This document shows positions 8,782 to 32,145 of a stretch of 37,892 nt of DNA, piece by piece (within the stretch, counting starts at the first letter, position 1; the number at the start of each line of letters is the position of its first letter). The stretch comes from Ectocarpus siliculosus. Taxonomy: Eukaryota; Sar; Phaeophyceae; Ectocarpales; Ectocarpaceae. Made by a program: the position numbers and the translations under genes. The DNA is taken from the NCBI GenBank assembly GCA_000310025.1, contig FN649741.1, positions 1,632,332-1,670,223 of the forward strand. Direction: 5' to 3'. Under the pieces are notes generated by a model. The model ran no database searches. It was not told where the DNA came from and worked only from the letters and a program-made list of their open reading frames with translations.

Positions 8782-9727
8782 AAGAAGGAGAAGCGACAGC
8801 AGCAGAAGCAGCAGCAGAAGCAGCAGCAGAAGCAGCAACCGCAGCAGTAGCAGCAGCAGCAGAAGCAGCAACGTGAGCAGAAGATACGTGCGGCGCAAGG
8901 CTATGCAGGCGTGACTGGCAGGGACACCAGGGGATATCGGTTGGCATTGTCGTGTTGATCAAGAAATGAGGGCAAAATCCAAAAAGCAGCCATGGGGCCA
9001 CTAGAGCAAAGAGAGAGGTAAACGATTTCCTTACGTATCATCTTTCAACATATATCTCCGCAAAAACTAAAACCAAAACAAAAAATATTCAAACAATACA
9101 ACAAACAGAACACAATGCCATGTCCAACCATTGTGCGGAAGAGAACACCTGTTTTTGGTTTTGACTGGAAAACACGCGAGAACGCCGCGTTCTTCGATCG
9201 GGGTAGACGAACCTGCGGCTGGAAAAAATAATTAGGGACGAGCCTATCTAGATCAATATACTCCAACTCTTACCGAACTCGAGCGGGTTGTCTAGAAAGC
9301 CACCCGCATGCTAGTTTTTCATGGGAACCATGGCTCATATATGTCAAGGTGTCGCGTTGTAGAGCAGCTATACAATGCACGCCTAACGCTGCGCTCGGCC
9401 TCCCTCCGCACCTCGCACAGAGCTGGAGCTGGTCGATGGTGATGGCCGTGCCCAGCACCCCGACCGCGCACCGGATGCCGGCATCGTGCAGCTTGATCAC
9501 GTCGAAGTATCCCTCCACGACGAATGCCGTGTCTTCCGACCGCATCGCCTGTTCGATAAAAGAAGAAATCATTAGTGTCGTCGACAAGGGAAGGATACAC
9601 ACAAAAGGTGGCATTTACAAGCGGTGGTTTCCCGATAATACATAGCCGCACTGAGACTGAGGTATTTTCGTTGGTCAGCCGGTTGACGCGGCTGATGCCA
9701 ACTCAATGAAGTATCAACACACACAGG

Positions 9728-9760
<33 letters not shown>

Positions 9761-12700: not shown

Positions 12701-14769
12701 NNNNNNNNNNNNNNNNNNNNNNNNNNNNNNGCGGGGGGGGGGGGGGGGGAGGGGTCACCTGCATCAAGAACGTGATCACGTCGCCGCTCGCGCCGCAGCC
12801 GAAGCAGTGGTAGGACCCCCTGGAGTCGTCCACAGAGAAGGAAGGCGTCCGGTCCTCGTGGAAGGGGCAGCACCCCACCATCCCCCGTCCCGCCGGCTTC
12901 ATCTCCACGTGCCTTCACGGGTGAAAAACGGGAAGGGAGGTAATAAGCAGGAGTAGTAAGACAACGCGCTTGAGCCGGGATTCGAGGATGCTGGATACGC
13001 GTGAACGTGTACTTGCATATCGCACAAACTCAGCCCATGAGATGCAACCCCTGCTGGGCGGAGGCCGTCAGACTGCATGGACAAGGACGCCAACAAGAGG
13101 TGCCGCCGAAGAACTATTGGGACGCGGCGGCGGCATGCTTGCGATGACACACACAACCAGCGGTAGAATAGCTTTTCTCCTCTTTGCAACCGGCGGGGCA
13201 ACTGCAGACGCAACAGAAAAAATGAAGCAGCACAAGCACACGCATGCTACACGCCTCTTTTTCTAGGTCAAATTGAAGGTGTTTGATGTGTGCTGGTGAA
13301 CACTGAAAGCCACGGCCGTATATGTGGAACCGTTAGCCGGCGAACCGTAGACAGCGTGCCAGCAGCAGACTACACGACACAACAGCAGCCACGTGCACTA
13401 CAAGCTTTGGGCGTTGTCGTCGTGCGTTGTTGCGTGACCACCAGTCTAACAATGAAGTCAGTCACCTCGCGGTGTGAGCGTCAAACGGCAGGGGTTGGCG
13501 CCAACTGACAAACAAGCGGGCGGTGCAAGTGTCTGGGTACAGCAGTACTACAGCACCAGCGCCCCATGTTCTGCTTGCGGCGAACTTTGCCTATTTTGGG
13601 GCAGCAGCCCACCACCAAAGCAGCTAACCCAGCAGTCAGCAAGCTCGTTCATAATCCTTGGGGGACTCAGAAAGGTCCCGCACGCCAACATACGCACCAC
13701 GGTAGTAGTGCCGCCACCCTACACCGCTACACGTACCAGTGGCACACCGAGTCCAACGAAACATGTCCACGACATATGTTTTTCAACAAGACGGGCATGA
13801 ATCGACGATCGTCTCCAATCGCGGCCTGGATTTACCGTCATGCACATAGGCACCAAACCTCAATCTTTCCCGATAGCAAAGCGCAACCCTTTCCCCGGGT
13901 GCCGTCAGGCCTACCCCTAAAACCTGGTGAGCATGAGGGGGGTGAGGCGGGCCCAGCGGGAAAGAAGCGTTACCGTGTGATGGCGTGGTTTCTCACGTGG
14001 CGTTAGAACTATGGTACTACAGCAGTAGCATGCGATCGCATTCGTACCTACAATGCTAGCGGTGGTGCGTTTGAAGCGCACCGACGCTGATCTCTGCGCC
14101 GCTACGTGCATCACCCCCACACCCAAGCAGCAACCACACCAAAGCCACACCCACTACTCACTGGCCGATGACTTCGGTGATGCTGGTGGAAGCCCGGATA
14201 AGATCCAGGGTCTCGTCGGTGATGTGTCTACTGGGACCAAACGGCTTCCGTCCTCCTCCTCCTCCGCCGCCACCCTCCTTTCGCTGCTGCACGCTCCCCC
14301 GCGGCTGCCCGGCCGCTAGCTCCACCCTTTGAGGAAGCCTGGACTGCTGAGGACCTCTCCCGCCGCCCGCGGCGGGAGCGGCATCGCCGGGTCGATCGTT
14401 ACCGGCTGCCGCCGCACTCAACGGCGCCACGGCGCGAGGTCTACTAGGTGGTAGTCGGCGCCGGCGCCGGCCTGTGCACTCTTGGCCGCTGGAAGCTGCG
14501 CTTGTTCCGAACCCGCTGCTACTCGTTGGTAGGGCGCACCACGACGACGAGCGGGGTTGCTGCTGCTGCTGCTGCGCGCGGTGCAGCAGTCGACGGGAGG
14601 AGCCTGCTGCTGCCGTACGCGGCGGAGGGCCGCACAGGAAGGCCTCGGCTGCCTTCGGGGTCGTCGTCGTCGCGACGAGGGAGGTGGTGGCTGCCGCCGC
14701 TGCCGCCGCTGCCGTCGCCAGGCGCAAGGAGCGGCGCACGCCAGTGCGAGCCTCCGGTGCGCTCCTCAT
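3499..14769 (-). CDS. dnaG: Plastid-targeted bacterial-type DNA primase (DnaG-like), 15 exons
   Basis: DnaG makes the RNA primers for DNA replication and normally works with the replicative helicase DnaB. The inferred exons, in transcript order, are 14769-14162, 12912-12759, 11949-11726, 11349-11244, 10901-10821, 10558-10451, 10199-9927, 9548-9412, 8705-8519, 7696-7480, 7094-6691, 6273-5713, 5564-5502, 5217-4939 and 4542-3499 (stop TGA). Every junction is GT-AG with matching phase, and the total is 4446 nt, 1481 codons. The order of signatures is CHC2 zinc finger, RNA polymerase core, TOPRIM, C-terminal region, as in bacterial DnaG (about 580-650 aa). The extra length is an N-terminal pre-sequence of about 195 aa and a long low-complexity tail. 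The start at 14769 is chosen because it gives a clean signal peptide; an in-frame GTG lies 24 nt upstream. Red-lineage algae are known to use nuclear-encoded DnaG in plastids, which fits. The small 63-nt exon 5564-5502 is the least certain. Confidence 0.9.
5713..7696 (-). other. Primase exons 10-12: post-TOPRIM helices and probable helicase-binding-like region
   Basis: Exon 10 (7696-7480) starts [20 protein letters not shown] and resembles the DnaG segment just after TOPRIM. Exon 11 (7094-6691) has basic helices ([15 protein letters not shown]), a Gln-rich run, and then basic and Trp-containing helices. Exon 12 (6273-5713) has [20 protein letters not shown] followed by a helix with RQWLFNAL, which I read as the leucine-rich 'L-L-x3-HP' repeat of the DnaG C-terminal helicase-binding domain. 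A Gly/Ala/Pro-rich insert follows. The helicase-binding assignment is inference from pattern, not a match I could compute. Confidence 0.6.
8519..8705 (-). other. Primase exon 9: TOPRIM DGD metal-binding motif
   Basis: The exon begins by completing an Arg codon and encodes [20 protein letters not shown], in which Asp576 and Asp578 are the TOPRIM metal-binding aspartates. It then gives [20 protein letters not shown], equivalent to the conserved 'P-x-G-x-DP' segment of DnaG. With Glu530 in the previous exon the catalytic acidic set appears complete, so the primase should be active. Confidence 0.9.
8723..8875. repeat. (CAG)n-type imperfect microsatellite in primase intron
   Basis: Runs of CAG with AAG, GAA and CAA interruptions cover about 150 bp. 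In the transcript (minus strand) this reads as CTG/CTT and sits immediately upstream of the exon 9 acceptor at 8706, so it may act as part of the pyrimidine tract. Open frames of poly-Gln or poly-Ala through it are not coding. Confidence 0.85.
9725..9776. repeat. (GA)n dinucleotide repeat in primase intron
   Basis: A GA run with a few interruptions. It reads (CT)n in the primase transcript and lies in the intron between exons 7 and 8, about 180 nt before the acceptor. Confidence 0.85.
10713..10750. repeat. Short dispersed tRNA-like (SINE-like) fragment
   Basis: GGCCAATGGTCTAACAACTA with a following AAGGTATGC resembles the D-arm / box A of a tRNA. The 13-mer GGCCAATGGTCTA recurs at about 37790-37802, and a variant of the second half (CCTAACAGCTAAGGCACGC) occurs near 37855. 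The fragment is small and could be chance; it lies inside a primase intron. Confidence 0.3.
10949..11037. repeat. (AAC)n/(AAT)n/(CCA)n microsatellite in primase intron
   Basis: AAC and AAT triplets with a short CCA block. In the primase transcript this is GTT/ATT, starting about 50 nt upstream of the exon 5 acceptor. More AAC triplets recur at about 11098-11140. Confidence 0.85.
12365..12730. other. Assembly gap (100 N) with low-quality flank
   Basis: N runs from 12631 to 12730. The sequence from 12365 to 12630 is made of stuttering homopolymers, like the start of the window, and is probably unreliable read-end sequence. It lies in the primase intron between exons 2 and 3, so the coding sequence is not affected, but the intron length is unknown. 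Confidence 0.9.
12759..12912 (-). other. Primase exon 2: CHC2 zinc-binding domain
   Basis: The exon completes the split Gln codon and encodes [20 protein letters not shown] followed by a conserved TPSF segment and [18 protein letters not shown]. The likely zinc ligands are Cys218, His221, Cys239 and Cys242, spaced as in DnaG (C-x2-H, then C-x2-C). This is the most diagnostic piece of the gene. It lies only 28 bases from the 100-N assembly gap, which falls in the next intron. Confidence 0.92.
14162..14769 (-). other. Primase exon 1: bipartite plastid pre-sequence and start of mature protein
   Basis: Residues 1-43 have a basic start ([13 protein letters not shown]), an Ala/Thr-rich hydrophobic stretch and the junction KAAEA|FLCG, with Phe44 at the predicted cleavage point. 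This matches the ASAFAP-type motif of stramenopile and other red-derived secondary plastids, where an aromatic residue follows signal-peptide cleavage. The following 110 or so residues are rich in Ser, Arg, Gln and Pro and poor in acid residues, as in a transit peptide. The last part, '[21 protein letters not shown]', is the conserved helix that precedes the zinc finger in DnaG. The exon ends in phase 2 inside the Gln codon at donor GTGAGT. Confidence 0.8.
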
Positions 14770-14992
14770 TGGAGCCGTGGTGGTTCTTCGCACACAAGGC
14801 TACCGCAATTGCTTGCTGCTCGCAGCAAACACATGTCCCCGTTTCGGCCAAGGGGGGCACACAGAGCGGAATATTTCATCTCTTTAGTTCCCCTTCGCGA
14901 TGCCCCCGGTCAACGGCCCCAACGGCCCGCTGTATCTTTTCTGGCTTGTCGTCCGTCTGGGTGGACTCGAACAGCAGCATCGCGAAAGAAGC
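14770..14992. promoter_or_regulatory. Short divergent intergenic region (probable bidirectional promoter)
   Basis: Only about 220 bp separate the proposed start codons of the primase (minus) and the PhoD-like protein (plus); if the upstream in-frame ATG at 14900 is used it is 130 bp. Both genes' 5' UTRs and promoters must overlap here unless an unseen 5' non-coding exon exists. I see no clear TATA box. The call rests on geometry alone. Confidence 0.45.
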
Positions 14993-15091
14993 ATGGGCAA
15001 CATAGAGAGTGGTCCCGAGGGTTCGCTGGGGGCCGTGGACTCCCTGAAGCATCGATTGCAGTCACTCGAGGAGACCATCCGATCCATCGAG
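14993..15091 (+). other. PhoD-like gene exon 1: candidate N-myristoylation start
   Basis: From ATG 14993 the protein begins MGNIESGPEG, with Gly2 and Ser6 as in the N-myristoylation consensus, followed by a short amphipathic helix (LKHRLQSLEETIRSIE). An in-frame ATG at 14900 would add a 31-residue hydrophobic-then-basic extension and remove the myristoylation site. I prefer the second ATG because of the motif. The donor GTAGGT follows a complete codon. Confidence 0.5.
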
Positions 15092-18000
15092 GTAGGTGTA
15101 TATAGATTAGTCTGGGGAGATGGCTATGCGCGGTGTGTATCCAACTACGGCGCATCACGCACCCCCACTATCCCAACCGAGTACATCAATCAAAGCAACG
15201 GAGAGTAGCACCGGCGCGACAACACCCCTGTTGCGGACGCATCTGAGGCGTTGTTGATCAACGAAATAAAGGTTTTACATGTACATTGTTTGACACTATG
15301 GACACCCTATAGTCTACACTTGAGTTTCATTCAAACGAAGTTGGAAAGCACTTCAAAATATTGTGCGGCGCACTGCGAGGGCGACTCTCATTGTTTGACA
15401 CTATGGACACCCTACACTTGAGTTTTCATTCAAACGAGGTTGAAAGCACTTCAGAAATATTGTGCGGTCGCATTGCGAGGGCGACTCCAATCATCCTCCG
15501 CAGCCAGCGACGTATGCTCTCAGCCAATCAACTGGCTCAACAGTAGGACACCACCGCGTCGGACGGCCGTGCACGGACGACTGCTGTTGTGTTGGTCGGT
15601 TCGGGAAATTCAAAATTTCAGGTCGCTCATCAGGATGCCCAAGGTGACCACTTCCCGGCACCCGGCGCAGCGGATATGTGCCTCTACGGTGCTCGCCTGG
15701 TGTGCACGCCTGGCGTACAAGTCCTGACTGGTCCCGTCATCGGCGAAGTTACCGAAAATTCGGCGGTGAGCATTCCATGTGGTTCAATCTTGTAAGATAG
15801 TCAGCACCAACTTCCACCTTTCACCTGGTACTCGATAAATAGCAATAAGCTCGTTCCTGCAGAACACCCCCTTTCAAACCCAAGCGACCACCGTCAGCGA
15901 ATACCCACTCGCACTCCGTGCGTTCATCTCAAGTGTGCCGGTGTTGTACTCACGGTGTTTTTTTCTTCTGCTGCTCATGTCCGCACCGATCGCGCCTTGC
16001 ACCCGTTGTGAGTTCCCTGAGATTAAAATCGTTAAACCCGCGTCCCTTGCACATTCCGCCAACCACCAAACGCACAGGTCGTCCTTCTGGAGGTGGACAT
16101 TGCACCCGAGTTAGGGCCAACGTCCCCAGTAACTTGCCACGTGTCCGTATCAGAGGGTGCCTGCCGAGGCGGTCGCGTTGTTCATTCTACAACTCTTACC
16201 CTACCGTCCCGCCGACCAAGGGCCTTTCGAATAGGTGGGGGAATAAGCAGCGTCATCGGGCCCGGGCGAGTCTTCACCGTGTGCTTCGGTGGAGTTAGCG
16301 CAGAGGATGCCCGTTTTCGCGTTGGAAGGTATCGTGCGAATTGTGATTGCGGGGTAAGCCGCGACGAACATGTAAAATTTGTTCCCTCACTTCGGTGTGT
16401 GTGATACGTGTCCTCGTTCCGATATTCTCACGGGTCTATTCATGATGGCTAGAGAGAGTCGTCCTTGACGGACGTTCGCGAGGTGGGACCCTTGTTAAAG
16501 GCCACCTCCACACTCTCTCTCACACACACACCTCTAGCCTAAGCCTAGTCACAGGATAAACTAATATTTCCTCGCTGCTGGTCGCGCCTCCGCACGTGAC
16601 CACGCCGGTATCGTTCCCAGAACTTTCTTCCTCACCCCGAGCGCCTGCATCCCGTCGAACGACAGGTTTAGGACGCCCGGCACCTGCTTCGAGCCTTGTC
16701 TTGGAGCGATAGCCGTGAGCGGGGATCGCCCGGACCGACTCGCGCCGGGAGAGCCGTCGCTGTGGCGCGTCCTCCGCGAGCGCGTCGCGGTTCCGAGCAT
16801 CGTCCCGGGGAACGTTCCAGGTGCTAGCGGTGAAGGGAAAGAAGGGCACCAGCACTACTTTCCAATCGACGTGGTCTTGCATACCGGTGGTCAGGCGTGG
16901 ATGGCCGACGCCCTCGAGGACGCCTGGGAGCTGCTGAGGAGGCGGGCGATGGAGCCGGTGCTCTGCGCCGACGGCGGGTGGCGGGAGGCGCAGGAAGAGG
17001 CAGACGAATGCCTGCGTGAGGTGAGAGCGGGAGAAAAAACCACCAGTGGATGCGACAGAACGAGGACAACTGTTTCGTTTGGTCTGCTGATGATGAGTAT
17101 AGACTCGCGTGCGATTTTTGTAAGTCTACGGTTGTATGTTTCTTCTCGACCTATCGATCGTTGATGTATCGGAAGAGCGCAAGGAACGCGATCCGCAGAA
17201 CAAGGGTGGTTGCGTCGTCACAGCGCGTGACGTGCCGATGGAAACAAGCGCACACAAAGACCACCCCAACCCTTTGTCCCCTCTTCAACCCAGGCCATCC
17301 GGCGGTCGTGGAACCTCCCGGACAAGCGTGCCGTGCTGTCATCGGTTTCCAACCTCATGGTTTGCGGGGCCGCGGACTTGCACCCCGATTTCGAAGGACA
17401 TTTGGCACGTGTTTCGTTGAAGTCAGGTGACGGTGTCAACGCGGGAATGGGGAGTACAAGACGGGGAATGAGATCGACTCGGGCGTCCGGAAAAGAAAGG
17501 TTGGTGTAGGCAGATGAGACAGCCCAAACAGGCATGTGACAGCCCAAACGGGCAGGTTAACAGTGGGTTACGAAACTTCTGTCCAATTACGTGGAAAAAG
17601 GGTTTGGTTGATCGTTTCTTTTCATGCTCTATTTTCGGCGTGTAGCGCGCCCAGCATACGTATGCTATTTTCTGAACAGAACGATAAACCACACGAAGCA
17701 ACCCAAAAACTACCGAATGCGCTGCGACGGAGGTGAGTTTCTTACGCTACAAGACGCCGGAGAAACATGTGTCCCGCTACGCACCCCATACCATAGTGAC
17801 CCTCGCCAGCACTCGCTGCCTTCGTCATACCTTGCGAAGCACAAGAGACACCAATCCCTCTGTAAAAAGCTGGTCTTCTACACTCCGTCGCCATCAACTC
17901 GGGAAACAAACACATTCTTGGTGCCCTGAAAGCGCAGCTGCCGCACGCTGGAGGAGCTGAGGGTCCCGCGGCTCGAACGACCACCATCCGCGACGAACCG

Positions 18001-18319
18001 GATTGCTTTCCTTCGTCGTAGGTCAGCGTACTGATTTGTTTTGGCTTGTTCCAATGCTCGCGCGCATCACGTGGCGCGGTGATCGTTCTGCGTTGGACAG
18101 GCAAGAAGTCCGGGCCCTTCACGCAGCGGTCCGAGCCTGCCGCCGCGTATTCAGCGAGTACCAAGGCCAGCTCCTGTGGAAGGCGTTGTCGAAGGGAGGG
18201 GTGCGGGGGGGGGGGGACATGGAGGACTTGACCCCGGCTTTCGAGGCAGAGGTGATTGTTGTTGTTGGTGGTGGTGGTGGTGCTGTTGTTTGTTCGTGTT
18301 GTTGTCGTTGTCGTTGTCG

Positions 18320-18357
<38 letters not shown>

Positions 18358-21300
18358 GCTGTTGTTATTGCCTCGCTGCATCATGCCTAGCGCTGTCGCC
18401 ACACGTGAGTCCCGACCACGGATGTAGGATTTCCTTTTCAATGTCGAGGCATGACGTCACTTGTGTGCGGCTCCCTGATATTCTAAAAGTCGACCACATT
18501 TAAAACAGAGGGAATCAAAGACAGATGAGAAAACCCTGCGCTGGTCTGTGGTGGGGGCACTCATACAATGCTAACCTTTGTTAGATACGCTCTCGAACCA
18601 CTATTTTCACATGCTGTTTCCGTTGATGGAAGACTATCGTTGTGTGGGAGAGACCAAAATCGTGGTTTTCGCATATTTGTCAGACGACGGACGAAGGAGA
18701 CCATTCATCGACGAAACGAGCATATGCAGCCAACAAAAATCCGTCTTCTGTGGTGCACCGAAGGGGCTTCCGACTTCCATTGCAACCCCATCCCTGGTTG
18801 CACCTGCCCGAGCGGGGATCGGAGTAGATTCGATCAGGATATATATATCAGGGTATCGACACAACGATCTGCTCAGCGTAAGACCGTGCCGTGCCCCGGG
18901 GGTGCTGTTTTCGTAGCCGATGTGTTCCCTCGAGTAGCACGCGGTCACTATTGGTCCTACAGAAAACAAGCTGCCAAGATCTTTGTTGAGCGCGTTCTGC
19001 AGGAGTACCGCGTGGCGCGACAGTCGCGCTCCTCGCGGGTGCGGTGTTAAGTGGAACCTACGGTCAATGGGGCTGAACAAACAAGGACTTTCCCACCGCA
19101 GCAACACGTCAAAACTTAGAGATGGGACGAACGTGTCGCTACAAGCTGCATGACCGATGATGCTCCGTGGCGCTCGATCAATGTCTGAGGCCGGCAACGA
19201 ACAAGATCGCCCTCACCCCCTCCTCCTTGCGCATTCACGCTCAAACGTGCATTTCCTTGGAATATGTCGGCTGATGCTTGCCCTTATCGGTCGCCGCTGC
19301 CACCTCAGGAGAAAGGCGTGGAAGAGGCCCTCGCCGAGACTCGTCGGGTCGAGCGAGACGAGGCCGTAAAGCAGAAGAAGGTGAAGAGGGCGCGTTTCCT
19401 CCCAGAAAAACGCCCCGTAAGCTTGCCAAGCAGCCCCACGCAGCCCTACCTCCTAAACCTAGAGTCAGGGAAACACTCTCCGCGCGCCTCTTTTGTTTGT
19501 ACTCCCTCCTGCCCGCCTTCCTTGGTCCATAGTTGGAGCGAGAAGAAAACATGGACATCGATGCCAAACTCGGAGAAGCACGGCCAATACGCTGAACTGT
19601 TATCCTGAACGTGGTAGTTTGTGCGAGGAACAAGACACCAGAGTCGGCCACACCATCAATTTAGCACCAACCGGCCGCTCCTCCTCCTCCTGGCATCAGG
19701 TGGCGATGGCAGAGGAGGCTCTTCGCCGAGCCAAGGCGGCGGGTAGCCTCCCCACCGAGGGCGGCCTGCGCGCCGCGGAGGAGAGGATCGACAAGATACG
19801 CAAGCAAGCCAAGGCGGCCAGGGCTGCACGAATTGCCCTGGCCAAGCGCGAGGTCCCAGCTGTGGCGGCGGCGGCGGCGACGCGGGCGTCTCAGGTACGG
19901 GCACGGAGAGTGACTGGCCGCCTCTGGTTGGGCGCGTGATTCTGTGAAAGGACTGTACGTGACCGGAGCACGACGGCAGAACAAGCAACGAGGAAACAGT
20001 ATCCGCACAACTAGGAGAGGAAACGAGCCCCTGTCTCCCGACACGGAGACTTCACACAACGGATCATGTAGTCGGCTACGTACCCGCCCATGTTACGATC
20101 CCTTCTAAGCTGAATAGCAAAATCCAGGGCTCATGCCCAGCACTTTGGCGGAGGTTTTGAAGCACGAACCCGCCGCCATAGAATTCAACTTACGTCGTTC
20201 CACGCTCTGTACCATGTAGTGCTATTGTCCAAGCCACCCATTTTCTCGGAACGAACCAGGTTACGAATACATACATACATATTTTGTCCCAAAAATGAAA
20301 GCCAGAAAGCCTTGAAAAAATCTAGATTAACTGCTGCACCGACAGCTCGGGAGATGCACCGAGTTTCTTACTTTTCGTATGTTAGAACTCAAGGTAGTCA
20401 TTCTTCAAAATATGTTATATTATGACGTTGCGGTTGCGTTATGTGCCTTTTCCAACCACGAAACCGGCGGGGTTTTGCTTCACGTTTCTCCGTGCTCATA
20501 GGGAGGGTTTCTCAACCTGGGTGGGTCGATTGGCCTCGTCCTTCTCGACACCGTGTGGTCGAGGGTGACTTGGGACGGCAAGATCCACCAAGCAGGGGAG
20601 AACTCCCCGCACGGCGTGGACGGGGGCGGCACGGCAGCGGCACCGGAGGCGCCGCCGTTGCTGTCCCCCGGTGCATGGGAGGCTCTTGAGCTCGAGCTGG
20701 GCAGGGACTCTGAGCTAAGGCTCCTGATTGTCGTCATGCGAGTGAGTCTCGCCGGCAATGTGGGGGAAATTGCGGGATGCAGGGGGGAGGGAAGGAGCTT
20801 GATTTTGGAATGGATCAGTTGGTATGGGCAGAAGTTGACGAGTATCTCGTGGGTGCCTACATAGAGCGCCGCTAGCCGGCTGGGCAATGGCCACACACCC
20901 TTTGCTACGTCCTACTGCGGCAGGAACCGAATGCCAGAAATGTTCCTGAACGCGGCGCTCCTGCCTGCCGATCAGTGCAACAGCGGCCGGGAGGTCCTGC
21001 ATAAACTAATGAGGCAACAGGGGGCGGTTATTTCAACACGAGGAAAAGGGGGACCCGACGCTGAATTCGAAACACACCTCACCTACAAAGTCCGAAAGTT
21101 TGGAGGATACTGCGATATAGTACTATGTTGCTCTCATCACAACTAGCTGGTGCTCTGCAACCGGCGCGCGCGGAGAGTCTGGGATCGTCTGCAAAGGCGC
21201 ATTTCCCTCAAGACTCTCATTCGCACTTATTTCTACCCGCCGACGGTTTTTTCGTCCACGGCGCGCAAAGATTGACATACATGCACCTTGCCTCCTCGCC

Positions 21301-24300
21301 GCCTCTGATTCCTCGCCGCATCAATTGCTCAACCAACAACGCATACAATGAAGCACGCACTAGCGGGAGGCACGCCGCATACCACGGCACGCTTCCCCTC
21401 GGCATCCAGCGGCAACGACCAGGTGTCTGGCAACGCCAAAGCTGACGGCAGCGGCAGAAGTAATCTCGACGGTAATCCGCCGTCGCGGTCAAACTCGGCC
21501 TCGATCTCGGCCTCGGATGTTGCCGATGACACCGGCAGCGGTGGGCGGGACGAGAGGGACCGCCTCTTGGAGCGCCTCTTCGCGTGGAAAGCCGGGGAGG
21601 CGTGGAGGGAAGTGGTGCTGGTCTGCGGCGCGGCGGAGGGGCGAGGCGGGCGGGGCGGGCTGCGCTCTGCGTGCGAATTGGAGGTGAGAAAAATATCAAT
21701 AGAAAGAGGACGCCCTCTCTGACTTGGATTGGACAGCTCGGTGTTAGAAAGAATACTGCGCCGTACGATCCATCCTCCGGTACAGTATCCATCAATACAC
21801 ACCCGACTGCCCGCCGCACGAAAATGAGGACACCGTCGTGTGGCAACCCCAATCCCTAAAACTCCAGGTGCCCCCCACCCGGCCTCCAACAATCTCTCCT
21901 TGTTCCAGGTTTTGGACTCGAAGCACCCGGGGTGTACCATCCGCCAGGTCGTCGCCGGACCCATCACGGACACTCCCGGTGCGCCGCCGAGGGTGACGCC
22001 CGCCACCCCGGATCCAACAAACGGCCGTCGGGGGTCCCGCGCCCCCCCCGAAGCCACCAGCGTCGGCGGCGGCCGATTCTCTTACCGATGGAGCCACCCC
22101 GGTTCCGCCAGCGGTGGATCGGCTGCCGGCGACGGCAACGACGACTCGGGGCCCAAGGGCACGGCTCTCTCCTCCTCCTCCTCCTCCTCCTCCTCCTCCT
22201 CCTCCGACAAGGTCAACGCCGTCACCGCCGGCTCGTTCGGGGACGACGTCAGCGCGATCACGACCGCACCCGGAGCGGGGTCGGCGCGCCCGTCCTCCCG
22301 ACAGAGCAAGCTCGACGACGAAGGCCCAGTGTTGCCGCAAGCGAAGGCGGTGGCCGCAGCAGCACCGGGCTGGGACGACGACGCCGGCGGGGCCAGCGGC
22401 ACCCCCGACAGCCGGCAGTCCTCGCGGCCGGCGACAGCGGCAGACGCCGACGGAACGGCGCCACGGCAATCGACGACGACGACGACCGCGGACGAACGGC
22501 AGCGACGATCCGCGGCGGCGCCCGTGTCCGCGCACGGGGAGCGGAGTTTTATCGAGGCTTTCCTCGACGGGGGCCACTCGCCTTCCACCGCCGTCGCGGC
22601 CGGGATGGACCCGGCGGCGAGCGCGCGGGGGGTCGCGGCGTCCGTGACGGCGAGGGCGGTGACGGTTACGTTTGTCGGCGCGGCGGTGGTGCTGGGGCCC
22701 GTGGTGGGCAGGGTGACGCAGCGGTCCGCGGTGGTTCTCGTGGAGGTCGGGAGCACGGCGGCGGTGGGGTGCGTGCTGACCGACGGGGCGACGGGGTGGC
22801 AGCACAAGCAGGTAAAATGGGGAGGATACCTGAGGAAGAATAGGAGTGCTGCATCCCTTGCGACACCTACGCAGTTGTTCGTGGTTCTCGCAAGCCTAAA
22901 TTACGTCCGAATCCAACATCTTGTGTGTAGTTCGATCTGGCCAATGCAAAAGTATGGAATTTAGCACGCCAGGACCTATGATGAGACCTCGCGATATGTT
23001 GGTAACGAAAGATTTGGTGATATTATTATGGAAGAGCTCTACGTTTGACAATGACCGAACTCTCCGATCGTTTTCTCCACTCGTATGCCATACCCGTGCA
23101 ATTGAAACCGGCACCACACCTTGCGCACGTAAGGGTTGCCACTGAGCAACACCCTCCCTCTCGACGTCCCAGGACAAGCACACAAAAATACGTAAACGTA
23201 GCCCCTCTTAATTCGCGTGGTCATTGTCCCAGGACACACCTCGTTACATTTTTCGGAGATGTCACCACTTTGTGCCGTGAGGTTTAGCTCTGTTCCTAGG
23301 CGCTAAACAGGGGAGCGTGTAACATCCCTTCACTACGCCGCGAACGCGACCCCTACCGCCGCACCCCGCCTCGCCCCTCCCCATCCAGGTGCACCTCCTC
23401 TACCCAAGGCAACCGCACGCGTTCTTCTTCGACACGCTGGAAGAGAGCCGGCACTACAGCATATTTCTCGAAGGGGTGGACAACGGCGACGCACGCACGG
23501 GGGCTTTCACAACGCTCAAGGTGACGGGCGGCGCGAGTCCCCTCTGCGTGCACTCGCAGCTTTGAACAACGCGGTACCATGACTGTTCCCTGCCGATTTC
23601 GTGTTCCTTGAAGGAAATCGCGTCGCGAGGCACCCCTGAGTTGTAAGATGCAGTCATTTACAGCTTCGAACTCTGTAGTACTCCCGCATACCCTTCCTTC
23701 GCTCTCTCGGTCCTGTTCCTTGCTCGCTCGACGTCTTTCTCTACCCCGACCACCCGCATCACTGTTTCCGCGTACCTCCGCGCCCCCCTGTACCCCGCGC
23801 TCGCTGTGTTCCAGGCATGGCCGGACCGTCGGGAGCCTCCCGCCCTCCGAGCTGCCGTACGCCTGTCCGGCAACGGCGGCGACGACGACGACGACTACGA
23901 GCAATCTCAATCATGCGACGTGCGCCTCCTCTTCGTCAGCGGGACGGGGCTCGCCAGCGCCGCACGGGGGCAACTCCGAGACGAGGGCGACGGTGGTGCT
24001 AGCACCGCCACCGCCGGCGAGGCGACGGCGGCGGACATGTGGGGCGTGTTGGGGCGGGAGCTGTGGAGGCCGTGGCCGCAGGCGGACGTCGTCGTGCACA
24101 CGGGCTCCCAGGTGAAAGATTCGATTTATATTGGCGGGCGCTCTTTTCTCCCTCAAGGAACGAGAACGGCGGACTGTGGTGGCGGTGGTGCTGAGGGTGG
24201 TAGTCGTACGCCAGGAGGCGGGTCCCGCTGGTGTAGATCTAAACGGAGGAACGGTAGGTGTGCTGTTGGGCGAGGAACGGTCCGAGCTCTGTGTTGTATC

Positions 24301-27300
24301 GCCTCGACTGCTGTGCCAAGCAGGGTGCTCAGAATCCAGCCCAAAACAACAGAACACTACGAACGATTCTTGTAGACCGCGCACTCCACCGCGGCAAAGA
24401 CAACCTGAAGCCTAAAATAGGCGCATTCTGAAGAAAACCACGGGCACTACCGTATATGACACAAGATAACACACCTACATAAGAAAGCACACCCCCCACA
24501 GAATACGACACCCCGGTGATAGTTTCGGGCGCTTCTGACAAACCATCGATTTATCACCGGGGGTACATAAGATAACACACCCCGGTGATATTTTTAGGTA
24601 CGCCGCATATAGTCACGGGGCCCCTCCTTCTTTATCACCGGGGTGACAGCATCTGCCCTGGGCAGTCACACACACAACCACGTCAGCTATGTGCGGGGAA
24701 ACACCCCGCATGGAGACCCCCAACAACATGAACGTGCAGGCAGAGCAGAATGCAGCCGCAAGTACCAAGTAAACGTTTTTGTGAGGGGGGCAGGAAGGAT
24801 GGCGCACGCAGTCTGTGGCCGCCGCCAATCATCGTATCGGTCGAGGTACCTTCGATTTTTAATTTTTTCTTGCTCGATTCAAGCCCGTATTTTGTTTCAA
24901 ACTTTTTTTGGCGATGAGAGGGTTGAGTTATCGCCGAGGTCATGTGCTCAGGAGTTTCGTCACCTCGGTTGAGCCCCTTTGTTTTTCCACGCCCCTTTAG
25001 GTAGGTCCCTACACTGCACGTGTACGTGCTGGCATGGCTATCACACCCCCTTTTATCGCACCCCCTCATTTATCACACCCCAAAGCACACGCTGTGACTG
25101 TTCGGACGTGCTATCAAACCCCCTTTTATCACACACCCTCATTTACCACACCCCCAAACGCACGCTGTGGGTGTTCGGACGCGCTATCACACCCCCTGTG
25201 TTATCACACCCCCTTAGGGGCCCCTGCGAGCTGCACTTTATCACCCGGGGTACACAAGATAACACACCCCCCACAGGATACCACACCCGGTGATAATATT
25301 TTCAAACTCCAAAATGTTATCACCGGGGTGTGTTTTCTTGTGTCATGTACGGTATGCACGGCGTCACTCCCCCGTAGATGTTTCCTTCGACAGAGACCTA
25401 AATGAAGCCTTTCGCTCATGAACGACAGAACTATTTCAACGGAAATAGAACCGCTCCCTGCCACTCTCCGGTTCACGCGCATTAGGTGGACCTTGAGGTC
25501 GCCGTGATGGAGGCGTTGCCTATCCTGTCTGCCGCGGAAGCGGAGGAAGAGGGTTCGGAGGAACGCGAGCAAGCCGAAGAGATGGCCATGGAGCGGGTGG
25601 GATGCGATATTCGAAATGTTGGTTGTTGTTCTTGTTTGGCTACCCGTAACAATAACATGTAGAATCTCCTAAAGGATAACCCTCGCGGAGAGGCGGGGAG
25701 AGGTGCTTAACGTGTCGCAAGCATTTGCCGTTCTATGGTCCTGGAGGTGATAGGAACTGCGACCCCTGTTTTTCCGCCCGTGCACCACCGTCTCATGCGC
25801 CTGATAATCTGGACGCATCTCCACACCCCCTGCGTCCACACTTGTTCATTGGCATACGGAGCGAACTGTCCAGTTTAGCCCTAAAGGAGAACACCCAGCC
25901 GACAGCAAACGTTGGTTCTTTCGCCATGCCTACCAACGGGCGCTATTTAGTGTCAACAAACACGAGCTCCATCCCCCCACCATCATGACCAACCTCACGC
26001 CTCCTCCGCCTCCCGCTACAAATCCAGATCCGCGACGCCTACCGGTTCCAGTGGAGCCTCCCGGGCGCGAGGGTGTGTCTCTCTTGCGGCAGCCACCTCA
26101 TGGTGAGGGGCGAGGCAGACCTAGCTCTTCCTCAGCTCGACGGCTCTTCACGCCGATCCTCGTCCTCGACTACCTCTAGCGCGCCCGGTGGCGTTGGGGT
26201 AAGCGCTGGCCGCCGCCGTCGGGGCGGCGGCGGAGGCGGCGGCGAGACTCTGGCAGCAGGAAAGGGAGGGCTCCTTGGTCTGCAAGTGAGCGCATACGCG
26301 CGGATTACGCTCGCTCGCTTGGCTTCACAGGTGACGAGACTTACGGGGCCCATGGTGGGGAGTGGCTGGTATGCCATAGCAATGTCCCACAGCAACAAAG
26401 TTGTGGTAGTGATTATTTTTTTTTGTTTTGGGAGCAATATCGAGGCTCTTTTCGGGATTTCCAAGTGGCGGGGCGTCTTGCATGGTGGTCGCAACCCTTT
26501 GTGTTCTTGCACCAGACATGTCAGAGCCTCCGAGACTGCCCGACTGAAGGTACTGCTGTATCCGTGACTACAAACCTTTGCGAGTATTCGGGGCTGAACG
26601 ACCCCGGTTCTTTGCTTTTCTCTGTTCCCCGCTCAAAAAGAACCCTCAAGCGCCCACAAAGATCTACCCCGCACGCTGATTCCGAGCTTTTTTTTAACGC
26701 GTGAGAACCTCGAAAGGCGTTCGACGACTACCAGCGGCAGCTGTGGGATCCCCTGTCCGTGCCCATGGGCCTCGACATGAACGACGTGGGCTATGCTCGC
26801 GGGGGGCCAGGTATCGACAGCGTAGGGTCGGGCGACGGGTTCTTCCGAGATGCCGCGAGTGTGGGGGGCGAAGGAGAGTGGCACTTTCACGTGTACGGGG
26901 AAACGGTCGGTCTTTTCGCGCTGGACGTTCGCGAGGGAAGCGCGGGGTTGCAGGTGTGATATAACAAGCAGAGGCAGGGTTCGCTACGGAACGATGGGTG
27001 CGTTCATCACTGCTGAGCTTAAAAAGTCCGGGCTTGGTTTGTGGGGATCACCGCCGAGGTCGCAACCCAAAAAAGCTGCCGGCAATCTCCTGAAACCCGT
27101 TACCTCACGATTGTAATCTAACCACAATCACGAGGAGTTTCGAGGAAAACGCGGGATCAGCGGGAGGCTTGACCGGTGGATTTTTTTACCTGNNNNNNNN
27201 NNNNNNNNNNNNNNNNNNNNNNNNNNNNNNNNNNNNNNNNNNNNNNNNNNNNNNNNNNNNNNNNNNNNNNNNNNNNNNNNNNNNNNNNNNNNCCCCCCCC

Positions 27301-30246
27301 CCCCCCCCCTTCCCCCCCTCCCTACACGTTATTACCCAAACGGAAAGCGCGACGAGCGTGCCCCGCTTCTTTCCGACACGCAGTGGTCGTCTCTGGCGCG
27401 AGCCCTTAGCATCGAGGAGATCCAGGCGATGGTCGTCGTGGGCGACGCGCCGTTCGTGTCGGACTCTATTCTAGATGCTCGGACCAAGGCTCGACACCCG
27501 TCGCACGTGAGGGTCGTCGGTTTGACTCAATTGTGCTTGCTGTGCAATCCGTCGGGACCCTCTATGTGTTACATCCGACGACTCCCGAAAAAATTCCTTG
27601 CCAACCATGGTACTCTCGAACAGCAAGTGCGTGGTCACTTTGGCTGCATGTTTCCCTCCAGCGCAGATCACTAGAACCCGCTCACAAAACTCTGTTCACG
27701 TTGTTTCGGACTTGCTTCGTACGGTCAGAGAGTCCCGAGCATGCTCCCTCTTGCCCCGGCTTGGTGCAATGGCCTCGCCACCCCGCATTGGCTGCCGTTC
27801 GGCGGTGCCCTACCCTCGGCAAAGAACCCCCAAAGCCCTTAAACACCCAATCCTGGACGGTTACCCGTCTCACACCTACCCACGCCTTGTTCGACGTGTC
27901 TTGTTGCAATGCACAGGCTCACCTGCGGCGCTCGTGGCCGTTTCACGGTGGCGAGCTTCTGCGGTTGGTGGGGATGCTGGTAGAGTGGAAGACGGCTGGG
28001 GCAGTCGGGGGAGAACCTCGCGAGGTGGTCCATTGCTTTGGTTATTGTTGTTGTTGATTCGGATGCTACAAGATTCAGGAAGAGCTTTTACTCCCTGTAC
28101 AGATAGTCTAGAGGCCAACCTTGCACGTGCACTAGTCAACGCTTACACATCGGCTCTGGCACCAAACACGTTTCCATTCCGAACAATATTAAATCTCCCT
28201 CTCTCCTCCCAAGCGCCACTAGTTCACCAACGTGGGCAAACGTGGAAGCCGCACACTCAAGCACACTTCCTGCTTTACTACTGCGTGATTGCCTCGACAT
28301 TACACAACAGGTTACCCTGATCGGGGGAGGTGTACAATACCCGCTGGAAACCGTCATCAACGATTCTGCGTCGTCTGTTGCTATCACACAGGTACGGCCA
28401 CTAACGAACCATCTGGCTATGCTGCCTTTCTCCCGACGGCATCGAACGTTGTTTTACGTACGCAAATGTGTAGTACCCTTGGCCATCCGGTCTGGAAACT
28501 GAAAGACAACGAGGTTGTGAAAGCACTCTTCGCTGTAGTTACTGGCGGGGATACAGGAAGTGGCAACGATCACGATGCCCATCAAAAGCACGAACTTCCG
28601 TAGGCTTGAGGATAACAGATACTCACAATCGAAGGGCCTCTTCCCTCCATCATTGCCCCGTTCTCTTCCCTGACCCACGCTCCGCACGGCATGACTTCCT
28701 ACGACGCCCTTCTGGTATAGACGGTCTGCGGGCCGTTCTACGGCATCCCGTCCCTCCATGGAAGGGTATTCGAGCCCGCGGGTGCGCTGAGTCAGCGGTT
28801 TTTCTACAGCCACACGATCAACGACCCGCAGCAGCAACAGCCTGGCGGCGTTCACCCGGCGTCAGCTGCGTCGGACTACAAAGTCATGCCCCCGCCGCGG
28901 CCGCTCAGCTCTACATCAGACCGGCACGACGAAAACGGCAGCATCGAAAACGGTGCCCTTGTCCCCGAAATCGACAGTCCGTATCGATCCCCCTCGTGCG
29001 TCCTGGTGCGGTGCGAGGCCAGGGGGGCGGGACCTAGCGCCCGCCTCTTGCTGCGGAGTCGCTTCTTCACGGCCTCCTCGTGGGCGGCCTGGTGCAGCGA
29101 TGGTGATGCCGGCGCAGCAGCAAAATCAGCTAGACCGGCATCGCCACTACCCCCCTCCACCGAGGCGAATGTGCCTCCGCTGTCAGAGCCACCAGCAGAC
29201 ACAGGACGACCAAGAGCGGCCCCGCGGTGGGCCGTCACGGCGTGGCAAGAACAGGCCGAGACCACCTCCAAAAAACAAGGTGGAGGAGGGGGAAGAGGAG
29301 CAACGGAAGCAGCGGATGCCCTAGCAGCGCTTTGCACGGACGAAAGTCTTTCTGACGTTCTCCTTGAAGCCTTCGATCGAGTGTTAGACATAAACGAGGG
29401 CGAGGACGAGGACGAAGCCCTGGCGGCCGCGCGGGCTGGGACCGGAGACGCAACTCGGAGGGTGTTCGAGAGTCTGGCCTGGGTGTACAACAACGTGAGA
29501 CGCTTTGGATTGATAGTTCGTTCCTTTGCTCGCTTGGGGCTTCGTCTAGTCTTGGTGGTCTTGATCTGGCGGAATCGTGTCAGTGTGTACAGGAGGGGAT
29601 AGAAACAGCGGGTTGGAGGGCGTGTTGAAGTCTACCGAAGTTTTCCGTCGGAGGGTAAAAGTGCTAAACTTCTAGAAGTGGTAAGCACTATTATATGAAG
29701 GAATCCCTCTAAATCATGCAAACCATTTGATTCAAGTAACCGATGGCCTCCTACCAGCTGCAATGCTGTCGACCTCCTTCTTGAGCTTCCCTTCGCTCTC
29801 CTGCCTCCCCATACCTCATTCACCGACTGACTGGAACCATCAACCGACGGCAGGCTGCCTGCGCCAGGGTCCGTGCGCTGTACCCCACACGCCCGTCCCC
29901 CATCGTGGTTCGTCACCTTCTGAAGTCGGCACAGCAGCGAGGCAGCGGGTCCAGCAACAATGCGGACGAAAACAAGGTGCCGCCACGACCAGCAAAGGTC
30001 AGCGAATCAGTCGAAACGACCATCGCGAAGGGTCGGCAGGGCAGGAGCGGTCAGAGGGGGGGCGGGGAGGGGAAAATGACGAAGCGGTCTAAGACCAGAG
30101 ATGAGGGCGCGAAAGAAGGAGAAGCAAGGTCGTTGCTTCCGTCGTGGCTGTTCGTGCACTTACCGTTTCACGACGAAGAGAGCTTTGCCGAGTTTTTCTG
30201 CAAGGTTTTGAGGGGCTCAGAGCGTCTGGCGGCCGGGTTCGTCTAG
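14993..30246 (+). CDS. Tandem double PhoD-like protein, probable pseudophosphatase, about 21 exons
   Basis: PhoD-family proteins are metal-dependent phosphodiesterases/alkaline phosphatases. Here two successive PhoD-like units are joined in one reading frame of roughly 1,780 codons. The exons I support are 14993-15091, 15622-15765, 16078-16328, 16666-17020, 17294-17499, 18101-18251, 19309-19416, 19700-19894, 20502-20741, 21423-21683, 21909-22811, 23389-23520, 23815-24111, 25486-25596, 26028-26285, 26717-26953, 27384-27506, 27917-28024, 28311-28391, 28721-29494 and a last exon from about 29926 or 29935 to 30246 (stop TAG). All adjacent phases match. A small exon may be missing between 20741 and 21423, and another between 26285 and 26717. 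The exon ending at 17499 uses a weak donor, chosen for phase; 17426 is an alternative. Catalytic motifs are degenerate in both units. It could instead be two adjacent genes, but no stop codon or start region is seen between the units. Confidence 0.72.
15285..15488. repeat. Tandem direct repeat, 105-bp unit, two copies
   Basis: Copy 1 (15285-15389) and copy 2 (15390 to about 15488) both start ATTGTTTGACACTATGGACA and end near GCGAGGGCGACTC. They differ by a few substitutions and small indels. The repeat lies in intron 1 of the PhoD-like gene. Confidence 0.85.
15622..21683 (+). other. PhoD-like unit 1
   Basis: The parts in order are: N-terminal beta-sandwich strand LTGPVIGEVTENSAVVLLEV (exons 2-3, residues 68-87); an inter-domain segment ending DARFRVGRFRTPG; AVSGDRPDRLAPGEPSLWRV, which matches the 'VSCDRP...G..S.W' start of PhoD catalytic domains but has Gly in place of Cys; DVVLHTGGQAW (residues 233-243), where PhoD has H-L-G-D-Q-V-Y; RRSWNLPDKRAVLSSVSNLM followed by VCGAADL, where PhoD has a DDH[DE]-type motif; CRRVFSEYQGQLL; SIGLVLLDTVWSRVTWDGKI; and RDERDRLLERLFAWK followed by EVVLVCGAAEG, where PhoD has SGD-x-H. 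Two exons (19309-19416 and 19700-19894) insert about 100 residues of Lys/Arg/Glu/Ala-rich coiled-coil-like helix. Fold assignment is by pattern; the missing residues are read directly. Confidence 0.7.
18252..18370. repeat. (GTT)n microsatellite in PhoD-like gene intron
   Basis: TTG/GTG/GTC triplets begin right after the donor at 18252 and become a pure GTT run at about 18319-18357. Both genes of this window therefore have GTT-type triplet repeats in the sense strand of introns. Confidence 0.85.
24450..25352. mobile_element. Non-autonomous TIR element (MITE-like), 903 bp, TA flanks
   Basis: The left end CCGTATATGACACAAGATAA and the right end, reversed and complemented, CCGTACATGACACAAGAAAA form an inverted repeat that continues into ACACACC. 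TA dinucleotides at 24448-24449 and 25353-25354 are the probable target-site duplication. There is no transposase frame. The motif CACCCCGGTGATA and its reverse complement recur several times inside, as does a 73-bp tandem repeat. The element sits in the intron between the exons ending at 24111 and starting at 25486 of the PhoD-like gene. Confidence 0.72.
25038..25183. repeat. 73-bp tandem repeat, two copies plus partial third
   Basis: Units start CTATCACACCCCCTTTTATC at 25038 and CTATCAAACCCCCTTTTATC at 25111, and a partial third copy starts at 25184. Each unit ends in GTTCGGACG(T/C)G. Within each unit 'TATCACACCCC'-like motifs recur. The array is internal to the TIR element at 24450-25352. 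Confidence 0.85.
27193..27292. other. Assembly gap (100 N)
   Basis: A run of exactly 100 N, followed by a C homopolymer to about 27330. It falls in the PhoD-like intron between the exons ending at 26953 and starting at 27384, so a small exon could be hidden here, but the flanking exons join in phase without one. Confidence 0.95.
29926..30246 (+). other. Terminal exon of the PhoD-like gene
   Basis: The frame carries SAQQRGSGSSNNADENKVPP, a Lys/Arg/Gly-rich stretch, then LLPSWLFVHLPFHDEESFAE and a stop TAG at 30244-30246. It continues in phase 0 from the donor at 29495 with acceptors at ...CTGAAG (29925) or ...GCACAG (29934). The basic, disordered composition followed by a hydrophobic Trp/Phe-rich helix resembles no family I know. 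If this exon is wrong, translation would instead run past 29494 and end at the TAG near 29599. Confidence 0.5.
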
Positions 30247-31557
30247 GTTTTTCGGTCGCTCACCCTAACACTGGTGGGCGACCGCGTGTTGGGGCCGGTT
30301 GTACCAAAATCTCACAAGGTGACCATAGAAGCTTTCGAGGTCGTACCGCTTCTTCTCGTGTCTCGTTCGATTGCTATACCGTACGTTGTTGAGGGAAGAT
30401 CGGACCCCAAGAACTCATGCTATATCGGGCAGATAGACTATGGCTTACGGCAAGGGGATTCTCAGACGAGTTTTTGCGGAGGCCGATGACGAGTTTTCGA
30501 GAGTGTAAAAGATGCGTATAGCCTGGGGATATGGATGAGATGTGAGTGTTGACGTCATCATTTCACACCACCAAGGCCTCGACTGAATGCCCATTGTCGC
30601 TCAGGGCTCTTTGTAGCTTTCGTTTCATTGTAAAACGCCTACACCGCGACGCGACGAGGCATTGATGATGGATCGACCTGTGCGATCCTCAACAACCGCA
30701 TGAAGGGTGGTATGATATTTGGAGATAGACATGTGATCGTGGTTGACCATGGTTATTTAGCGCCGTCGGATGCTAAGACGTGACGCCATGCTAGATCAGG
30801 GCTTTATGCCGAGAGGCATGTGCCCTTCTGTTCAGTGTGCGTGCAGACGATCCATGATCGTGTGTGCGTGGGATATTGTGAGTTGGCTTGGAAAGCGTTA
30901 ATCAAGAGAAAGAGAACAACGGAAAGCAACAATAACCTGCTACTGTCGTCGGACAAGAGAGTTCCACACAGCTCAAAGGTGATTGCTTCTGAAGGAAGGG
31001 GTCAAATACCATTACAAGGGGAAACGTCACCAATATCGTGGTTTGTGGTTGGACTACTACAGTACACAGAACAAGACTGGTGAGATCTGGACAAAGACGG
31101 ATTTCCGTTGGGGGACACTTTGAGGCCAGTTTCCAGAAGCAAGTGCACGGGACTGGCAATAGCAGCTGGGTGTCGCTCGGTAGTGCCAGGCGTCACGCTG
31201 GTGGCGACGGCGAACCTTTAATTGCCAAAGAACTTTCTTCAGCTGGACGAGGAGCGCATGGGGAGGCCAAAGCTGCTGGCCGTGCTTTCTGCTTCTGCTG
31301 TGTAACTCCCCAGCGTTTGGCTCTCCGACTACTGCATTGGTATCTGTTCATTAGCATCTTTGCACGTAGACTTGTTGCTTAGTGATGTCTTGACCTCTCA
31401 CACCGCAATCACAAACCTGAAAGCGTAGACTAGACTAGATGTCTACAGAGACTACTGGTGTGCCGGCCGCTAAGACTATTGCGTTGATACACAGTAGTCT
31501 TCTTACAATTCATTTCGCCTCTTTCGGCTTCTGTGAGCGCTCTATTCCGGCCTTCTC
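30247..31557. other. No recognisable gene
   Basis: This lies downstream of the PhoD-like stop codon and probably holds its 3' UTR. Open frames of up to about 110 codons occur but have no recognisable similarity, and no donor/acceptor chain connects them. Confidence 0.45.
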
Positions 31558-32145
31558 GGGCTCTCGCAGAGCAGCATTTCCTCTGGAAATTTGGCACTTT
31601 GGTGGACTTTCCACTTTTGTCCTCCGCTTTTATCTCTCTCGCCTGCTGCTGTCACCCCGCTCTGTACCATCATACCACGCATTCGAAGTACGGCCCTCTC
31701 CTCTGTGTGTGCCTCCTTCTCCTCCGTTCCTCCGTCTCTCTATGTCTCTGACGGTCTGTCTATCCACATTCTCTTTTCATTTTCGCCTTCTCTCTTGACC
31801 GCTCTCGCATCGGAATGGTCTGTTGTTTGTGCCGCTGCCGTGTGCTACTGCGGGCTCTCACAGAGCAGCATTTCCTCTGGAAATTTGGCACTTTGGTGGA
31901 CTTTCCACTTTTGTCTTCCGCTTTTATCTCTCTCGCCGGCTGCTGTCACCCCTCTCTGTACCATCATACCACGCATTCCACTCGAAGTACGGCCCTCTCT
32001 GTGTGTGCCTCCTTCTCCTCCGTGCCTCCGTCTCTCGATGTCTCTGACGGTCTGTCTATCCACATTCTCTTTTCATTTGCTTTCTCTCTTGACCGCTCTC
32101 TCGTCGGAATGGTCTGTTGTTTGTTCCGATTCCGTGTGCTACTGC
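31558..32145. repeat. Tandem duplication, 294-bp unit, pyrimidine-rich
   Basis: Copy 1 (31558-31851) and copy 2 (31852 to about 32145) share GCAGCATTTCCTCTGGAAAT and nearly all following sequence, ending with CGGAATGGTCTGTTGTTTGT near 31810 and 32105. The last motif appears a third time at about 32258, marking a partial third copy. The top strand is strongly rich in T and C. Open frames through it repeat the same peptide twice and are not convincing genes. Confidence 0.85.

Follow-up and report, generated by a model that had tools for sequence, protein, structure and literature searches.

Tandem PhoD-like units with changed metal sites in Ectocarpus siliculosus: candidate pseudoenzymes that may be kept for binding

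Introduction

The closest described relatives of the gene studied here are the PhoD-like phosphatases (PF09423). According to the available part of PMC4223295, B. subtilis PhoD holds iron and two calcium ions, and its activity is abolished by the substitutions C180A, D265A, N271A, N272A and D436A and drastically reduced by D207A and D266A. Phosphatase folds without catalysis are known as well: the portion of the review PMC10211241 available to us describes pseudophosphatases that act as scaffolds, by competition or allosterically, the best-known of them, and the majority in human, being Cys-based. In the open-licence literature we found no paper that pairs PhoD with a pseudophosphatase, and among the matches listed none describes a PhoD pseudoenzyme in its title or at the start of its abstract. 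Pseudophosphatases as such are already known; what would be new, judging from sequence, is a pseudophosphatase in the PhoD fold, of which we found no description. Here we analyse a 37,892-nucleotide stretch of Ectocarpus siliculosus DNA (contig FN649741.1, positions 1,632,332 to 1,670,223, forward strand; 'the window'), in which a gene at 14993-30246, on the + strand, had been described from its letters alone as a double PhoD-like pseudophosphatase (the original prediction).

We find that this gene carries two PhoD-like units whose metal-ligand residues are changed, and that a second gene in the same genome, on contig C6, is in the same state. Our preferred reading, which we put at about two chances in three, is that these are PhoD-derived tandem pseudoenzymes retained for binding or scaffolding.

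Results

One long gene with two copies of a unit

Splicing 20 exons yields a single stop-free frame of 1,799 codons in which all 19 introns are of the GT-AG type; we selected the exons by eye among open frames bordered in this way, and openness and splice sites are thus partly by construction. A coding signal that depends less on this choice comes from the alternative frames and from base composition: the remaining two frames of the same exons contain 38 and 25 stops, where composition predicts about 38 in a frame of this length, and GC content at third codon positions is 0.746 compared with 0.529 in the introns. The original prediction of a frame kept across about 20 exons is upheld. An assembly gap (27193-27292) ends 55 bases before exon 16 and leaves the 5' edge of that exon uncertain.

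The product contains two copies of one unit, unit 1 (U1) at residues ~57-694 and unit 2 (U2) at ~876-1446. They match each other by blastp (E 3e-12) and by hhalign (495 columns, 35% identity, E 2.6e-13), with identities of 29-35% across alignments, which confirms that there are two; a genome search with unit 1 also matched the exon of unit 2 that covers the DDH region (E 0.03). Could two neighbouring single-unit genes have been wrongly joined, or the exons mis-chosen? We consider this improbable: against the facts that the exons were picked by eye and that exon 16 abuts the gap stands exon 10 (21909-22811), a single open frame that runs from the end of unit 1 through a low-complexity linker of about 180 residues into the start of unit 2, and junctions of this kind recur in open frames of the C6 locus.

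An intact relative links the units to PhoD

Searching the 189-Mb genome for DNA that encodes H-x-G-D-Q-x-Y-x-D gave a single exact match, inside a single-unit gene on contig C46. This gene matches Pfam PhoD (E 1.5e-14, 54.4 bits, cut-off 27), a profile of nine bacterial PhoD proteins (E 1.1e-19) and, narrowly, PhoD_2 (PF19050; 22.3 bits, cut-off 22). It carries VSC, HLGDQIY and CDDHEFTDD, its sites are intact as far as they can be read, and it is the closest intact relative of the window units that we found. Its SGDxH exon and 3' end probably lie in an 11-kb assembly gap, and the comparison at SGDxH therefore rests on bacterial proteins. One of its introns seems, by eye, to have a GC donor.

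The profile libraries themselves do not recognise the window units. A Pfam comparison (PF09423) of the spliced protein had been proposed as a check on the original prediction; PF09423 matches neither unit at E up to 10, and the same is true of PhoD_2. NCBIfam matches neither unit, and a PDB sequence search with unit 1 returned a single irrelevant match (E 6.9). Direct hhalign comparison with bacterial PhoD is likewise weak (5.8% probability for unit 1, 5.3% for unit 2, 39% for both together), so the link runs through the C46 gene and through the last unit of the C6 gene (U2'). Pairwise, units 1 and 2 align with the C46 protein at E 3e-10 and E 4e-4. An earlier profile of the C46 protein plus nine bacterial rows matched them at E 0.0056 and E 0.0095, where the best of 400 shuffles reached 0.68. 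In a test with 500 shuffles, a profile that included the C46 protein scored them at 10.8 and 11.1 bits, where the best shuffled sequences reached 1.9 and 1.4 bits. Leave-one-out profiles, built from the C46 protein, U2' and the other window unit, recovered unit 2 at E 2.8e-45 and unit 1 at E 1.3e-35 (values calculated for one sequence), and the best of 500 shuffles scored 7.1 and 3.5 bits, respectively. Chance resemblance is rejected by the pairwise E-values and these shuffle controls. Because the units beat shuffles with the C46 protein and with other eukaryotic units, the inferred descent from PhoD, as had been predicted, is solid.

DUF7800 (PF25077), for which we found no paper in the open-licence literature, appears below threshold at the start of four of the six units scanned, namely U2, the C6 units U1' and U0', and the C46 protein (E 0.0008-0.03 overall). 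Unit 2 stays below the 27-bit cut-off with E 0.0019-0.022 across two scans, the others lie below cut-off at E 0.032 (C46), 0.0056 (U1') and 0.00081 (U0'), and unit 1 and U2' have no match in the Pfam profile scan. The pattern hints that DUF7800 may be the N-terminal part of eukaryotic PhoD-like proteins.

The metal site is changed in both units

Alignment places HLGDQIY of the C46 protein opposite HTGGQAW in unit 1 and HTGSQVD in unit 2, its CDDHE opposite CGAAD and RGEAD, and the SGDxH site of bacterial PhoD opposite CGAAE and GGGVQ. Ligands are numbered after B. subtilis PhoD, whose published numbering is reproduced by the residue spacing in the letters of PDB entry 2YEQ; Tyr-210 and His-438 are taken as ligands by position. 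The columns of Asp-207 and Tyr-210 hold Gly and Trp in unit 1 and Ser and Asp in unit 2, those of Asp-265 and Asp-266 hold Gly and Ala, and Gly and Glu, and those of Asp-436 and His-438 hold Ala and Glu, and Gly and Gln. None of the 12 cells in these six better-aligned columns is kept (0/6 per unit), as against 48 of 106 cells in 53 other conserved columns (p 0.0012, in a post hoc test that counts two related units as independent). The scaffold columns were chosen where the C46 protein agrees with at least five of the nine bacterial rows, seven of which form one tree group, and 7 of the 106 cells are gaps; the reference set took 8 of 120 matching plasmid records, chosen among the 20 listed, and left 37 phage records unused. 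The main count excludes Cys-180, Asn-271 and Asn-272, whose alignment is doubtful (the Asn-272 column is Gly in seven of nine references). As MAFFT placed them, unit 1 keeps Cys and Asp and unit 2 keeps Asp, and all nine columns together give 3 of 18 cells kept (p 0.018). Set against the retained scaffold columns, the loss of ligands indicates that change is concentrated at the metal site and that the surrounding motifs remain.

Every motif quoted in the original prediction was found at its quoted position, and its central claim, loss of metal-binding residues in both units, stands for most or all ligands. Its assignment of VSG to the kept scaffold does not: VSG faces VSC of the C46 protein and is probably the lost iron-binding Cys site (Cys-180 of B. 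subtilis PhoD), a fourth lost site. Unit 2 has lost this Cys, and unit 1 probably has too, though less surely, since one MAFFT alignment put a different Cys of unit 1 in that column. Each lost motif sits inside one exon, apart from the end of HTGSQ|VD, whose last two codons fall in the next exon; loss of motifs through mis-joining of exons is rejected on this ground.

A different concern is that the protein still hydrolyses or binds metal with ligands that have migrated, as the available part of PMC10211241 suggests may have happened in some pseudoenzymes. Unit 2 does have Glu at the Asp-266 column and Asp at the Tyr-210 column, and MAFFT puts an Asp at the Asn-271 column in both units, an ambiguous placement and the only candidate for an intact ligand at an alternative position that alignment yielded. 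We regard this explanation as unlikely, because in each unit the six better-placed columns hold other residues, for the most part Gly, Ala, Ser or further non-ligands, and no new set of Asp, His or Cys common to both units is apparent by eye.

A second gene with several units

A genome search with unit 2 gave two ordered weak matches on contig C6 (E 0.036 and 0.94), and reading of this region revealed a gene, so far only partly modelled, in which three or more PhoD-like units follow one another. Pfam PhoD recognises the last of them, U2' (E 9.2e-9, 35.3 bits, cut-off 27), which is 37% identical to U2 across 341 aligned columns (hhalign E 8.5e-22). Despite the Pfam match its metal sites read VSHD, HLGGQ, WGQGE and AGAGL and are lost, as are those of the preceding unit U1' (FGGS, HLGNE, LAFTPL, CGGTG); these are the two C6 units whose sites can be read. 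U1' is the least secure unit: it fell below its shuffles with the profile of the C46 protein plus bacteria (2.5 against 3.4 bits) and beat them with all five U2'-containing profiles that were tried. For U0', a five-unit profile scan of the C6 region detected the start, GPVIGRVG (E 2.1e-8), and, more weakly, three other stretches (E 0.0007-0.02), and did not find the metal-site exons. An open frame upstream of U0' holds an EVLLICCGG-like strand (E 0.04), which may be where a fourth and more degenerate unit ends. Open frames of 1,081 and 702 residues precede the C6 units, and it is uncertain whether they belong wholly to this gene; part of the 702-residue frame resembles an EF-hand without reaching the cut-off (E 0.014).

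Both the window gene and the C6 gene have frames in which one unit ends and, after a linker, another begins, which suggests that the tandem arrangement predates their split. A tree of five units is poorly resolved: U2 and U2' group with support 71/57, and U1 and U1' stay ungrouped.

Searches for further relatives returned little. Genome searches with the C46 core and with unit 1 found their own genes only, an exon-wise search of the genome with PF09423 found nothing, and one with PF19050 found nothing with its controls silent too. Viral contigs and bacterial and archaeal genomes, queried with the first 328 residues of the window protein and with the C46 protein, held no confirmed relatives. 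Weak genome matches on contigs C23, C16 (7.06 Mb), C3, C22, C17, C7 and C462 failed against the five-unit profile (best E 0.07).

Feature map and neighbourhood

Coordinates are collected in Table 1. The start of the window protein, MGNIES, would fit an N-myristoylation consensus, a weak sign that the protein may be tethered to a membrane by myristate. The insert encoded by exon 7 resembles a long helix by eye.

Table 1. Features of the window gene (window coordinates) and of the two related genes (contig coordinates).
Feature	Location	Strand	Basis
Window gene, two PhoD-like units, 1,799 residues	14993..30246	+	20 spliced exons
Exon 1, N-terminus MGNIES	14993..15091	+	
Exon 2, start of unit 1, TGPVIGEVT (15727-15753)	15622..15765	+	
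Exon 3, unit 1 N-terminal part	16078..16328	+	profile scan
Exon 4, unit 1: IAVSGDR, likely lost Cys site (VSG within 16709-16729); HTGGQAW (16880-16900), lost Asp-207/Tyr-210 site	16666..17020	+	
Exon 5, unit 1: SWNLP retained; DDH site replaced by LMVCGAAD (17354-17377)	17294..17499	+	
Exon 6, unit 1: SEYQGQL retained	18101..18251	+	profile scan
Exon 7, Ala/Arg/Lys-rich insert	19700..19894	+	alignment: no counterpart in unit 2 or C46
Exon 8, unit 1: VLLDT, LLSPGAW retained	20502..20741	+	profile scan
Exon 9, unit 1: RDERDRLLERLFAWK retained; SGDxH replaced by VLVCGAAE (21615-21638)	21423..21683	+	profile scan
Exon 10, unit 1 end, low-complexity linker, unit 2 start LGPVVGRVT (22692-22718)	21909..22811	+	
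Exon 11, unit 2 N-terminal part	23389..23520	+	profile scan
Exon 12, unit 2: LFVSGTG, probably lost Cys site (VSG within 23929-23949); HTGSQ (24097-24111), lost Asp-207 site	23815..24111	+	
Exon 13, unit 2	25486..25596	+	profile scan
Exon 14, unit 2: QWSLP retained; DDH site replaced by LMVRGEAD (26097-26120)	26028..26330	+	
Exon 15, unit 2: DDYQRQL, FALDV retained	26717..26953	+	profile scan
Exon 16, unit 2: LLSDTQW retained; 5' edge uncertain	27348..27506	+	profile scan
Exon 17, unit 2: SWPFHGGELLRLVGMLVEWK retained	27917..28024	+	profile scan
Exon 18, unit 2: SGDxH replaced by TLIGGGVQ (28314-28337)	28311..28391	+	alone weak in profile scan, E 0.21
Exon 19, unit 2 end and C-terminal extension without Pfam match	28721..29494	+	
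Exon 20, C-terminus and stop	29854..30246	+	
C46 gene, single-unit PhoD-like	contig C46 ~352.6-361.1 kb	-	motif pattern, then Pfam
C6 gene, at least 3 PhoD-like units	contig C6 ~1.887-1.907 Mb	-	region reading and five-unit profile scan

The divergent neighbour at ~9273-14799 (- strand) resembles a DnaG-type primase gene split into pieces (CHC2 zinc ribbon E 4.6e-22, DNAG_N 2.5e-9, Toprim_4 1.3e-9), with a run of N inside its CHC2 open frame and a presumed N-terminus whose AEAF resembles, by eye, a plastid-targeting cleavage motif. Intron 12 of the window gene contains a 73-base tandem repeat in 2.4 copies (25037-25214), in surroundings that appear rich in CACACCCC and CACCGGGGTG motifs; the stretch may be a short mobile element. 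A 294-base unit stands in two tandem copies, 92% matching, at 31557-32145.

Discussion

The window units show homology to an enzyme and lack its catalytic motifs, the combination by which a pseudoenzyme is recognised, and the same ligand loss in the C6 gene makes the two look like members of a family of enzyme-like proteins retained for a non-catalytic task. On this reading the window gene would encode two PhoD-derived units in one protein, each consisting of an N-terminal part and a metallophosphatase core, with the iron and calcium site erased in both cores and the packing motifs around the site left in place. The genome would then hold a small family, made up of the single-unit C46 gene, its sites intact where readable, and two genes of several units each that have lost theirs. 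The products of these two would fold but not catalyse, and might act by binding, as scaffolds or as regulators of a partner. Candidate partners are, in the simplest case, a live enzyme of the C46 type, or a phosphoester ligand occupying the cleft of the former active site, and our confidence in any one particular partner is far lower than in binding as such. The ligand loss is probably old. A more specific version, which we offer tentatively as falling somewhat short of an even chance, has metal-free tandem PhoD arrays (two units in the window, at least three on C6, of which two are read and dead) standing beside one live single-unit enzyme; the loss of the metal site would precede the split of the genes seen today, and the array would have been retained from then on as a scaffold or a receptor for phosphoesters.

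Several points weigh against this account. The SGDxH exon of the intact relative is unread; the direct hhalign match to bacterial PhoD is weak; U1' fell below its shuffles with one profile; the column test is post hoc and counts two related units as if they were independent; and six of nine bacterial references themselves carry Glu at the Asp-436 column. The tree, moreover, does not place the ligand loss before or after the duplications.

A further alternative is a decaying pseudogene that is still readable by chance. The catalytic residues are lost and each unit is highly diverged, and if the ligand loss were recent this divergence could stem from an active past. Yet 1,799 codons are free of stops where about 38 would be expected (not a free test, as the exons were chosen from open frames), third-position GC is well above that of the introns, the ligands are replaced by different residues in each of two units that are only 29-35% identical, and both readable units of the C6 gene are in the same state. 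We consider decay a poor explanation for this combination.

If tandem pseudoenzymes retained for binding are the right interpretation, metal-free PhoD units in tandem in several genes, together with a live relative, would offer a clean example of a metalloenzyme fold put to new use in binding, and the question of what a metal-free PhoD fold does becomes testable. There is also a warning for annotation: Pfam PhoD misses both window units, and would label U2' a phosphatase although its sites are changed.

How, then, does the window gene compare with known systems? By alignment it has the motif order of PhoD-like phosphatases such as B. subtilis PhoD, running from GP..G through H-x-G-x-Q, the W.LP region, the M[VI] strand before the DDH site, the YQ.QL region, the LD strand and L[LM]S/G..W to the strand before SGDxH. 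It differs from them in its changed iron and calcium ligands, its tandem pair, the lack of a Pfam PhoD match, and the added long linker, insert exon and C-terminal extension. From the C46 protein, with which unit 1 aligns well, it differs in that the C46 protein alone has VSC, HLGDQIY and CDDHEFTDD. The C6 gene resembles it in having multiple units, lost metal sites (U1', U2') and the same kind of junction frames, and is unlike it in having at least one extra unit (U0') and possibly a fourth. The Cys-based pseudophosphatases (STYX, MTMR13 and the distal domains of receptor PTPs) keep a phosphatase fold without catalysis, for binding or regulation, as the window units may, as far as the available part of PMC10211241 describes them; their fold and chemistry are unrelated to PhoD, and whereas STYX lacks one cysteine, the window units have the whole metal site changed.

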